From Seohaeicola zhoushanensis (GTDB taxonomy: Bacteria > Pseudomonadota > Alphaproteobacteria > Rhodobacterales > Rhodobacteraceae): a stretch of 64,000 nucleotides of DNA. The notes under the pieces were generated by a model. It had not been told where the DNA came from. It was given only the letters and a program-made list of their open reading frames with translations, and did no database searches. Location: positions 62,001-126,000 of the forward strand of contig NZ_BNCJ01000004.1 of assembly GCF_014656415.1 (NCBI RefSeq). Direction: 5' to 3'. A program made the translations under genes and the position numbers. Below, piece after piece: positions 60,453 through 63,924 of the stretch (position 1 is its first letter; each line of letters opens with the position of its first letter).

Positions 60453-61424
60453 TCAGTGCTGGCCTGACCCTGGGCCATCCCCCGCGGCCTTGTCCGCGCC
60501 GTTTGCGACAGCTTCCGGGCGCGTTTGTGCCGGAACCGGCGGGGAAGACTGGGCGCGTCCCTCGCGCAGGGCAAGCAGCAGCGCACCCGCAAGGATCACT
60601 ACCGCGCCAAGGATCGACACGGCATCCGGCACCACGTCGAAAACGGCGAAGTCATAGAGCGCCGCGAAGAGCAGCGTGGCATAGCTGAAGGGCGCGACAA
60701 AGCTCGCATCCGCCCGCGCCATGCCGTTGACGAAGGCGATCTGTGCGCAGGCCATCAGGATCCCGATAGCCGCCAGTGCCGGCCATTGCCCTGGCTCGGG
60801 CATCTGCCAGACCGGCAGGACGGCGGCGCTGGCGATGCAGACCCCGAGAAGGTTGTTCACCAGCAGGATCTGGAACAACCCCTCGCGCCGGGTCAGCTTC
60901 TTGATGAAGATCAGCTCCATTCCCATCGACGCCGCCGCCGCCAGCGCCAGCAGTGCCGCGGGCTGGAAGCTCTCGGGCGTCGGGCGCAGCAGGATCACCA
61001 TGCCGGTGATCGCGATGGCGGCGGCGCTCCAGCGCACCCGGCCGACCTTCTCGCCCAGCAGCGGGATCGCCAGCATCATGGCGAAGACCGGGTTCAGGAA
61101 GCTGATGGCTGTGGCGTCGCCCATGGCGATATGTGCCACGGCGGCGAACATGAGCGAGACACCGCCCCAGCCGCAGAGCGTCCGGCCCAGGTGCAGCCCC
61201 CAATGCGGCCGTGTGATCCGGGGCCGCAGGACCATCGCGCCCCCCGCGAAAAGCGCGAAGGCGAAGACGAAGCGCGCGTGGCTGATCTGCAGCGGATGCA
61301 GCGGTGCCCCCAGGGCGCCGGTGCTCAGCGCCTTGGCCAGCAGCGTCGTCGCCGCGATGAAAGCCGAGGCCAGCAGGATCAGCGCCGCCGCCAGCGCGGG
61401 GTTGTGGGTCTTCGGAGTAAACAT
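60453..61424 (-). CDS. EamA-family (DMT superfamily) transporter
   Basis: 323-aa protein with ten predicted transmembrane helices made of two EamA repeats, one starting at residue ~10 and the second at ~155. Sequences GDATAISFLNPVFAMMLAIPLLGEKVG and the second-repeat counterpart (ADASFVAPFSYATLLFAALYDF) are typical. Drug/metabolite exporters of this type often export amino acids or vitamins. The ATG at 61424 has a perfect 14-bp palindrome immediately upstream. Confidence 0.88.
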   Translation of the reverse strand: MFTPKTHNPALAAALILLASAFIAATTLLAKALSTGALGAPLHPLQISHARFVFAFALFAGGAMVLRPRITRPHWGLHLGRTLCGWGGVSLMFAAVAHIAMGDATAISFLNPVFAMMLAIPLLGEKVGRVRWSAAAIAITGMVILLRPTPESFQPAALLALAAAASMGMELIFIKKLTRREGLFQILLVNNLLGVCIASAAVLPVWQMPEPGQWPALAAIGILMACAQIAFVNGMARADASFVAPFSYATLLFAALYDFAVFDVVPDAVSILGAVVILAGALLLALREGRAQSSPPVPAQTRPEAVANGADKAAGDGPGSGQH

Positions 61425-61428
61425 GCGC

Positions 61429-61442
61429 AAGCGATATCGCTT
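61429..61442. promoter_or_regulatory. AAGCGATATCGCTT palindrome at the EamA start
   Basis: Perfect 14-bp palindrome ending five bases before the EamA ATG, in the ribosome-binding region. It can hide the Shine-Dalgarno site in a hairpin or serve as an operator. No other copy was seen in the window. Confidence 0.45.
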
Positions 61443-61555
61443 TGCCGGGCGGGCGCAAGCGTATTGCGCCCAGGGCCGGGCGCGGGTCCTGTGTCGCGGC
61501 AGCATCGTCGCCGCGCAGCGCGCAAATCCCCCTATGCAAGCCCGGCGCGAGGGCG

Positions 61556-61561
61556 TATAGC
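61556..61561 (+). promoter_or_regulatory. -10 element for the arg leader
   Basis: TATAGC lies six bases before the leader-peptide ATG. If +1 is seven bases after it, as is usual, the transcript begins with the A of the ATG, making the leader mRNA leaderless. A -35 hexamer is not obvious. Confidence 0.4.
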
Positions 61562-61567
61562 CACGCC

Positions 61568-61612
61568 ATGACCACGCTCTCCGCCTCCCGCGTCCTCCGA
61601 CGCCGACGCTGA
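61568..61612 (+). CDS. Arginine-rich leader peptide upstream of argD-argF
   Basis: A 14-codon open frame, [14 protein letters not shown], followed by TGA. Five of fourteen codons are Arg, including four in succession at the end (CGA CGC CGA CGC). It lies 127 bp upstream of argD, the first gene of the arginine biosynthesis pair. Attenuator peptides of amino-acid operons are rich in the codon of the end product, so stalling at Arg codons would report arginyl-tRNA supply. Three hairpins follow. The predicted start at or next to +1 would make it leaderless, as reported for the trpL leader of Sinorhizobium. Confidence 0.65.
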
Positions 61613-61623
61613 TCCAGCCTCGC

Positions 61624-61714
61624 GCCGCTATTGCGGCCGGTCATGCCTTGCCAAAGGCGCAAACCTCTTCCAGATCGTTGACGCAATGGCCGTTCATGGG
61701 GCAACCATGAAGGC
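61624..61714 (+). promoter_or_regulatory. Hairpins in the argD leader, candidate attenuator
   Basis: Three stems lie between the leader peptide and argD: GCCGC-TATT-GCGGC (61624-61637), GCCTT-GCCA-AAGGC (61645-61658) and GCC-(G)-TTCATGG-GGCAA-CCATGAA-GGC (61689-61714). The last is a 10-bp stem with one bulged base. None is followed by a U-tract, so control may act on translation of argD or on mRNA decay rather than classical termination. Confidence 0.5.
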
Positions 61715-61739
61715 TCAACATTCCAAGAAGGATGATCCC

Positions 61740-62918
61740 ATGATCGCTTCCGTCCTGCCGACCTACAACCGTGCGCCGCTCGCCTTCGTGAAGGGCGAAG
61801 GCTCCTGGCTGATCGAGGCGGATGGCCGACGCTTCCTCGACCTCGGCGCGGGCATCGCGGTCAATGCGCTGGGTCATGCCAACCCGGCGCTGGTCAAGGC
61901 GCTGACCGAGCAGGCGAACGCGGTGTGGCACACGTCGAACCTCTACCACATCCCGCAGCAGGAGGCGCTGGCCGACCGGCTGGTCGAACATACCTTCGCC
62001 GACACGGTGTTCTTCACCAACTCGGGCACCGAAGCCTGCGAGCTCGCCGTCAAGATGGCGCGGAAATACTGGTACGAGAAGGGTGCGCCTGAACGCACCG
62101 ACATCCTCACCTTCGACGGTGCCTTCCACGGCCGCTCCTCGGCAGGCATCGCCGCGGCCGGCAGCGAAAAGATGACCAAGGGCTTCGGCCCGCTGCTTCC
62201 GGGCTTCGTGCACCTGCCCTGGGGCGATCACGACGCCCTCAAGCAGGCCGCCGCCTCGCCCACCGCGGGCGCGATCCTGGTCGAGCCGGTGCAGGGCGAG
62301 GGCGGCATCCGCCCGCTGCCCGACCAATGCCTGAAGGGCCTGCGCGACCTCTGCGACCAGCACGGGCTCTTGCTGATCCTCGACGAGGTGCAGTGCGGCA
62401 TGGGCCGCACCGGTAGGCTCTTCGCCCATGAATGGGCGGGGATCGAGCCCGACATCATGATGGTCGCCAAGGGTATCGGCGGCGGCTTCCCGCTGGGCGC
62501 CGTGCTGGCCACCGAAAAGGCCGCCGGGGGCATGACCGCCGGCACCCATGGCTCCACCTACGGCGGCAACCCGCTCGGCTGCGCGGTGGGCTGCGCGGTG
62601 ATGGACGCGATCACCGCGCCGGGCTTCCTCGACGAGGTCAACCGCAAGGCCGGCAAGATGCGCCAGAGCCTGGAGTCGCTGGTTGCCTCGCATGCGGCGG
62701 TCTTCGAGGAGGTGCGCGGCGCGGGCCTGATTCTGGGCCTCAAGTGCAAGGCGGTGAACGCCGACGTGGTGAAGGCCGGCTATGACAACCTCGTCATCAC
62801 CGTGCCGGCGGCCGACAACGTGATCCGCCTGCTGCCGCCGCTGACCATCACCGACGCCGAGATCGACGAGGCCATCAACCGTCTGGACGCCGCCGCACGC
62901 CAGGTCGAGGCCGCCTGA
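61740..62918 (+). CDS. argD: ArgD, acetylornithine transaminase
   Basis: 392-aa PLP-dependent class III aminotransferase. Motifs [17 protein letters not shown] (about 97-113), [10 protein letters not shown], the [13 protein letters not shown] segment and the PLP lysine in [15 protein letters not shown] are intact. It transfers an amino group to N-acetylglutamate semialdehyde in arginine synthesis. The ATG at 61740 follows AAGAAGGA; earlier ATGs at 61707 or 61686 are less well placed. Preceded by the Arg-rich leader peptide and followed by argF 79 bp later. Confidence 0.95.
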
Positions 62919-62997: not shown

Positions 62998-63924
62998 ATG
63001 AACCACTTTCTCGACATCCACAAGACCGACGCCGCCGACCTGCGGCGGATCATCGACGAGGCCGGCGCGATGAAGCGCGCGCGGGCCGGGCGGCCCAAGG
63101 GCGCGCGCGACGACGACCAACCGCTGAAAGACCACATGGTCGCGCTGATCTTCGAGAAACCCTCGACCCGGACCCGCGTCTCCTTCGAGGTCGGCGTCCA
63201 CCAGATGGGTGGACAGAGCCTCGTGCTGAAGGGCGACGAGATGCAACTCGGCCATGGCGAGACCATCGCCGATACCGCGCGCGTGCTCAGCCGCTATGTC
63301 GACCTCATCATGATCCGCACCTTCGAAGAGGCGACCCTGCTGGAGATGGCGGAACATGCCACTGTGCCGGTCATCAACGGGCTGACCAACCGCACCCACC
63401 CCTGCCAGATCATGGCCGACGTGATGACCTTCGAGGAGCACCGCGGGCCGATCGCCGGAAAGAAGGTGGTCTGGTCGGGCGACGGCAACAACGTCTTTGC
63501 CAGCTTCGCCCATGCCGCCGGGCAGTTCGGCTTCGACCTCACCTTCACCGGGCCCGAGACGCTCGACCCCGAGTCCGCCTGGCTCGACTTCGCCGCCCGG
63601 AAGGGCCACCCGATCACCATCGAGCGGGACCCGGCCAAGGCGGTCGAGGGCGCCGACCTGGTGGTGACCGATACCTGGGTCTCGATGCATGACCCGCAAT
63701 CGGCGCGCGAGCGGCGGCACAACCAGCTGCGCGGCTACCAGGTCAACGACGCGTTGATGGGCCATGCCAAGCCCGACTCGCTGTTCATGCACTGCCTGCC
63801 GGCGCATCGCGATGACGAGGCGACCAGCGCGGTGATGGACGGGCCGCATTCGGTGATCTTCGACGAGGCCGAGAACCGGCTGCACGCCCAGAAGGCGATC
63901 ATGCGCTACTGTCTCGGGGTCTGA
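62998..63924 (+). CDS. argF: ArgF, ornithine carbamoyltransferase
   Basis: 308-aa anabolic ornithine carbamoyltransferase. Carbamoyl-phosphate site STRTR (about 57-61), HPCQ (about 138-141) and the ornithine/catalytic HCLPAHR (about 269-275) are all present. It makes citrulline from ornithine and carbamoyl phosphate. Length is normal. Located 79 bp after argD in the same orientation, with the hairpin element between them. Confidence 0.96.

Follow-up and report, generated by a model that had tools for sequence, protein, structure and literature searches.

The trp, his and leu leaders are ribosome-mediated attenuators, in which codons for the end product in a short upstream open reading frame (uORF) are combined with a terminator and antiterminator. 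In Rhodobacterales the uORFC-8-2 motif lies 5′ of cysS and has a Cys-codon uORF and a terminator with a U-run, according to the accessible text of its description (PMC8632094). For the orf34-speF leader of Salmonella, the accessible text reports that Rho is counteracted when the uORF is translated, and that pausing at two Arg codons alters decay by RNase G (PMC6386406). The trpL of Sinorhizobium meliloti is leaderless, and in the available portions of the two papers a trans-acting role is reported for both its RNA and its peptide (PMC7298713, PMC10117765). The regulator ArgR is stated, in the part of the source available, to be conserved in the gammaproteobacteria and missing from other classes of Proteobacteria (PMC5343134). 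On the control of arginine synthesis in alphaproteobacteria, the leader described here offers a directly testable answer for one family.

We have studied a leader that precedes argD and argF in the alphaproteobacterium Seohaeicola zhoushanensis. It lies in a stretch of 64,000 nucleotides of contig NZ_BNCJ01000004.1 (the window, to which all coordinates refer; features are on the + strand unless stated). The gene names follow the preliminary description of this DNA; argD (61740–62918) we take from its sequence to encode acetylornithine aminotransferase, and argF (62998–63924) presumably encodes ornithine carbamoyltransferase. A leader peptide of 14 amino acids ending in four Arg codons had been proposed, and the sequence confirms such an ORF at 61568–61612, with its TGA stop at 61610–61612 and the run CGA CGC CGA CGC as codons 11–14 (61598–61609). 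A −10-like hexamer TATAGC (61556–61561), the TA of which is conserved in the leaders of the family, is separated from the ATG at 61568 by six bases. At the other end of the leader, AAGGA (61728–61732) resembles a Shine-Dalgarno (SD) sequence of argD, and a second in-frame ATG for argD is found at 61686, upstream of the start at 61740. The latter start reads ATGATC within GGATGATCCCATGATCG (61733–61746), and the same ATGATC opens 56 of 79 uORFs of the family. On the − strand a divergent gene (60453–61505), presumably a transporter of DMT/EamA type, reaches in its longest frame to about 50 bases from the −10 box of the leader.

Using the ArgD of the window as query, we took the best 80 of 572 confirmed loci, all from Rhodobacteraceae or close kin as judged by record title or similarity. 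The leader was scored for an ATG ORF of 8–20 codons with at least three Arg in four consecutive codons, starting 135–220 bases before argD. Such a uORF is present in 67 of these best 80 of 572 loci, compared with a mean of 0.72 and a maximum of 3 in 50 dinucleotide shuffles, and with 1 of 80 on the antisense strand. Four Arg in four codons were found in 47 of the best 80 (shuffle mean 0.1, maximum 1; antisense 0). A looser rule of two Arg in four, applied with no shuffle control, places a uORF in 77 of the same 80 loci, all except L014, L063 and L065, and argF follows argD in every one of the 80. On direct inspection of 61 genomes of the family, that of S. zhoushanensis included, at least three of four Arg were seen in 47, four of four in 35, and no Arg run in 14; among the 47 positive genomes a few (e.g., L196 and L201) look different from the others. 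In other families the Arg-run uORF was found at none of the 22 loci with a placeable argD start, out of 28 looked at.

The preliminary description had made conservation of the small ORF in relatives a test of its proposal, and had suggested aligning argD upstream regions for the Arg run. The ORF, its position, the Arg run, the −10 box and the surrounding fold prove to be conserved across the family. Evidently the Rhodobacteraceae possess a family-wide arginine-codon leader, at a frequency above chance, and, as in attenuators, a gene of the pathway is preceded by a conserved short uORF carrying several codons for its end product. The loci L149, L159, L165, L176, L180, L182 and L183 belong to family members that have no Arg uORF. 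In several members lacking the uORF a coding-looking stretch seems to end just 5′ of argD, and loss of the uORF in such members may be associated with a different upstream neighbor gene.

Where would the leader mRNA begin? Of 79 leaders, 77 have a −10-like TA 12–14 bases 5′ of the uORF ATG; T-rich −35-like positions occur about 34–36 bases before the ATG, and position −1 is C in 68 of the 79. In the accessible part of published data on transcription start sites, the commonest distance from −10 element to start is 6 bp, the commonest spacer is 17 bp, and in most alphaproteobacterial promoters the −10 element is missing its final T (PMC8407463). From this published spacing and the fixed spacing of the TA, the 5′ end of the mRNA is probably at the ATG of the uORF or within one or two bases of it, i.e., the transcript would be leaderless.

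Three hairpins had been listed between the ORF and argD. The predicted fold of 61568–61769 has five instead, the first overlapping the ORF, together with an enclosing helix around the first three hairpins that the earlier list had missed. In this helix (P1) a 5′ arm ATGACC that includes the start codon (61568–61573) is paired with a 3′ arm GGTCAT located 26 bases past the stop codon (61639–61644), with predicted pair probabilities of 0.72–0.91. Inside P1 lie a predicted hairpin GCGTC:GACGC (61590–61603) that contains Arg codons 11 and 12 and is also predicted in locus L003, a hairpin (61604–61622) that contains Arg codons 13 and 14 and the stop, and a hairpin GCCGC:GCGGC (61624–61637). The second of these is the counterpart of a stem common to the family (P2). 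Outside P1 are the predicted hairpins GCCTT:AAGGC (61645–61658), the counterpart of the family stem P3, and P4 (61689–61714), which ends 14 bases before AAGGA.

P1 was examined independently of any fitted alignment, by pairing the first 12 bases of each uORF with the region from its stop to +70, and comparing own with swapped partners in 2000 permutations; in L003, L011 and L074 the uORF start was assigned manually. The mean duplex energy is −8.46 kcal/mol for own partners and −6.53 for swapped partners, and 0 of 2000 permutations were as good. This was also true for the 56 leaders starting ATGATC (−8.13 versus −7.08; 0 of 2000) and for the 23 with other starts (−9.27 versus −6.86; 0 of 2000). 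Thus ATGACC:GGTCAT in the window corresponds to GACACC:GGTGTC in L009, GAACAG:CTGTTC in L050 and ATGGCAA:TTGCCAT in L020; in L007 and L061 the pairing is poor or located elsewhere. The conclusion that emerges is that the start region of the uORF pairs with RNA 3′ of its own stop codon, with strong covariation, and this is a new feature.

Swap tests also support the other stems. P2, formed between the Arg core and the stop region, gave z = −5.8; in most leaders the last Arg codons are inside this stem, paired around and past the stop. P3 gave z = −11.3, using segments taken from an alignment fitted to the structure. For P4 a first segment test gave z = −2.4, and three fixed windows gave −4.3, −3.2 and −5.9 (0, 2 and 0 of 1000 permutations as good). 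From the uORF to a conserved TTGAC before argD the RNA is more stable than its shuffled counterparts (mean z = −2.09 ± 0.15, n = 78), and the 60 bases upstream of the leader fold gave z = −0.19 ± 0.13 (n = 74). In an alignment of 45 leaders 18 of 21 pairs, and 7 of the 8 pairs of P1, have changes on both sides, with a covariation of 0.261 against 0.103 for shuffled and 0.029–0.076 for slid alignments, values biased toward the structure to which the alignment was fitted.

A covariance model (R1) built from 14 leaders and run against 82 sources at E up to 5 gave 57 matches, 55 of them at the leader and 2 antisense (L029 and L043); the window and L003 were not recovered among the 82. A second model (R2), applied with stricter filters, gave a single match in each of 68 family genomes out of 295, and among these 295 the S. 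zhoushanensis genome and that of its congener were unmatched. All 30 R2 matches that were fetched as loci are 46–91 bases before argD, and of the other 38, G047 and G171 could be placed before argD. Both models were built on other members of the family, and in the window and the congener, which they miss, P2 is arranged differently.

CGA and CGC are normally decoded by a single tRNA-Arg containing inosine. The Arg codons of 79 uORFs comprise 170 CGA, 165 CGC, 16 CGT, 5 CGG and 2 AGA, so that CGA makes up 170 of 358 (47%), compared with 97 of 1237 (8%) in the argD genes of the best 80 of 572 loci. Pairing in P2 can explain part of this bias; in the commonest class of leader the first CGA of the run falls outside P2. 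Between the start and the Arg run, CATA[TC], the best-conserved motif of this inner part, is found in 51 of 79 uORFs where 5.5 are expected on shuffling this middle part, and it is absent from the window. It falls in frame 0 in 36 uORFs, frame 1 in 14 and frame 2 in 1 (L064 and L018 are examples), and since it is found in two reading frames it is conserved as nucleotides and not as peptide. It is possibly a site for a nuclease or a protein.

We also searched for the leader elsewhere. In the S. zhoushanensis genome the bare motif CGACGNCGACGC shows no excess, with 46 occurrences against 46 in the control. Short ORFs with Arg runs are scattered before other arginine genes, in 2 of 14 argG, 4 of 16 argB and 3 of 15 argJ loci, counting the same-family loci alone (14 of 19, 16 of 22 and 15 of 20, respectively).

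One further element lies between the sensor and argD. TTGAC lies at 61678–61682 in the window, and 81 of the 82 leaders, L071 being the exception, carry it 50–90 bases 5′ of argD; GGCAC or TGCAC is partly conserved at a fixed spacing (+21 to +25) from it. Both TTGAC and P4 are also present at loci that have no uORF, which places them outside the sensor and may mark a separate promoter. In other families TTGAC precedes argD in 15 of 22 genomes, and 14 of these 15 have TA at the −10 position, resembling a standard promoter. The corresponding TA is seen at 7 of 81 named loci of the Rhodobacteraceae and at 0 of 11 loci lacking the uORF. In our reading TTGAC belongs to a promoter that is no longer in use or has been altered, and it may be the −35 box of a second one. 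We rejected a shared role for TTGAC as a promoter or regulator motif, because TTGAC-N14–16-KGCAC is not enriched in the S. zhoushanensis genome (29 occurrences, compared with 42 in the control). Other intergenic TTGAC sites (36 cases) were noisy.

How might the leader act on argDF? In classical transcription attenuation P4 (or P3) would be an intrinsic terminator, and a stalled ribosome would free an antiterminator strand. The order of Arg codons, stop, hairpins and gene is that of the trp and his leaders, swap tests (z = −3.2 to −5.9) show P4 to be a genuine hairpin, and some leaders do have U-rich tails, but the preliminary description had noted that its hairpins lacked U-tracts and for that reason suspected another mode, and the family bears this out. 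Of the 8 bases that follow the last hairpin in the window only 2 are U, and among 135 sequences, in which some species are possibly counted twice, at least 5 U in 8 bases follow P4 in only 21 and at least 4 in 50. To look for an antiterminator we took eleven segments from 78 leaders and ran the swap test on every pair of segments, followed by finer tests; rows with empty segments (S2, S6, and P2b × postP3, which gave artifact energies) were excluded. The alternate pairing of leader and hairpins that had been suggested did not emerge from these tests, in which only P1–P4 covary; the 3′ arms of P1 and P2 have no covarying partner in P3, P4, the argD ribosome site or the argD start. Strand 2 is weakly complementary to the 3′ arm of P4 (z = −0.5 ± 0.16, n = 44) but does not covary with it (swap z = +1.07), and could be a poor antiterminator. 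P4 is found also where the uORF is not, and for the cysS leader, which is likewise from Rhodobacterales, the accessible text of PMC8632094 gives a U-run. We consider classical attenuation unlikely; of the features of an attenuator, a terminator/antiterminator pair and a hairpin followed by a U-tract were not found, and the sensor looks like that of classical attenuation while the output does not. Masking of the argD ribosome site by the leader unless a ribosome stalls would be a translational alternative, and the SD region is indeed partly structured, averaging 36% unpaired in all states. Yet its predicted openness is 0.356 with and 0.363 without a stalled ribosome (n = 78; up in 10, down in 10), and in swap tests it has no covariation with P1, P2, P3 or P4, which makes such a mechanism very improbable.

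The main doubt over control of argDF by the leader comes from TTGAC, perhaps a second promoter; if it is active, part of the argDF mRNA bypasses the leader. In the extreme case argD would be transcribed mainly from there, and the uORF RNA would be a separate gene for a small RNA or peptide, possibly trans-acting like rnTrpL and peTrpL of Sinorhizobium. The near-invariance of TTGAC, its presence at loci without the uORF and the promoter-like form in other families all speak for this, as does the self-contained module formed by P1–P3. Set against them are the rarity of the −10 TA within the family, the absence of genomic enrichment, the covariation of P4 as RNA and the continued linkage of the Arg run to argDF, and we regard this as quite unlikely. 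A different sensor is also conceivable. TnaC and SpeFL act through sequence-specific stalling by the nascent peptide, and the leader peptide could sense free arginine or ornithine in the same manner; it has a basic C terminus, and A-H-I at codons 5–7 is common in one subgroup. However, the peptide is unconserved outside the Arg run, CATA[TC] spans two reading frames, and sensing by peptide has no need of the CGA bias, and we think this reading highly unlikely.

On balance we favor a leaderless leader peptide that gauges charged Arg-tRNA and controls the argDF mRNA in cis, joining a sensor to an output at the level of RNA. The sensing half, delay of the ribosome at the Arg codons, is very likely; that argD is thereby under arginine control we infer from the anatomy of the leader. 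The output, termination by Rho or decay of the RNA, is a guess that may well be wrong. RNA rich in C and poor in G is expected of Rho loading sites. The C/G ratio is 1.01 upstream of the promoter, 1.59 in the uORF, 1.78 from the stop to TTGAC and 2.83 over the 26 bases immediately 5′ of TTGAC, where across the family C is 0.38 and G is 0.13; in the window a C-rich, G-poor stretch before TTGAC is at 61659–61677.

In the proposed mechanism, when arginine is plentiful the ribosome would clear the uORF, and P2 and P1 would close and hide the start codon. No new ribosome could then enter, the C-rich, G-poor leader would be bare to Rho or nucleases, and little argDF mRNA would result. When Arg-tRNA is scarce the ribosome would pause at the Arg codons and prevent closure of P2, and probably of P1; the start would stay open, and the occupied leader would escape termination or decay. 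The output would be the abundance of the mRNA, reached by neither masking of the argD ribosome site nor an intrinsic terminator/antiterminator switch. The new element, we infer, is that delay of the ribosome prevents formation of the helix that locks the start of its own uORF. Taken to its end this gives a self-closing leader, in which the start codon is locked by RNA beyond the stop once the Arg codons are read without delay, and in which arginine supply would set the occupancy of the mRNA 5′ end by ribosomes and hence whether the argDF transcript survives, a terminator, antiterminator or masked ribosome site playing no part; we offer it tentatively, as a rather doubtful extension. Against the proposed mechanism, a ribosome on the Arg codons would leave more than 100 bases of the leader bare, so that the model leaves protection from Rho unexplained, neither R1 nor R2 recognizes the window or its congener, and the Arg run is missing in 14 of the 61 family genomes.

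Rfam gave 0 matches for the window, for 61500–61800 at E up to 1, and for 8 named loci. A literature search (search listings, subscription papers excluded) brought up no account of an arginine leader preceding argD in this group. As far as the literature was searched, the arginine-codon leader is new, having a sensor of attenuator type and an unusual structure, with no switch found. It would be a natural, probably leaderless mRNA in which a long-range helix with covariation holds the start region. As an Arg leader it apparently functions without the usual terminator switch.

The argDF leader shares with the trp, his and leu attenuators a short uORF with a run of end-product codons directly before a gene of the pathway, these codons lying within a stem and the stop near its loop. 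It differs from them in that no terminator/antiterminator pair was found, in the additional helix P1 that binds the start, and in being probably leaderless. It belongs to the same taxonomic order as uORFC-8-2, and in both the first stem contains uORF codons for the amino acid that is sensed, but the codons are for Arg and not Cys, the gene is argD and not cysS, and only uORFC-8-2 has the U-run; the accessible text of that paper names no argD leader and has 0 occurrences of "argD" (PMC8632094). Like trpL of S. meliloti it is a 14-codon ORF at the extreme 5′ end of the RNA, in our case a predicted position, in an alphaproteobacterium; in the available text trpL has Trp codons and a terminator/antiterminator (PMC7298713, PMC10117765). 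The nearest precedent is orf34-speF. According to the accessible text its uORF has two Arg codons and a Shine-Dalgarno sequence, and it controls ornithine decarboxylase (PMC6386406). The likeness lies in the consecutive Arg codons of the uORF, and in the pausing that alters the fold of the mRNA, with Rho and RNase G as outputs (PMC6386406); an output by Rho or decay may also operate for argDF.
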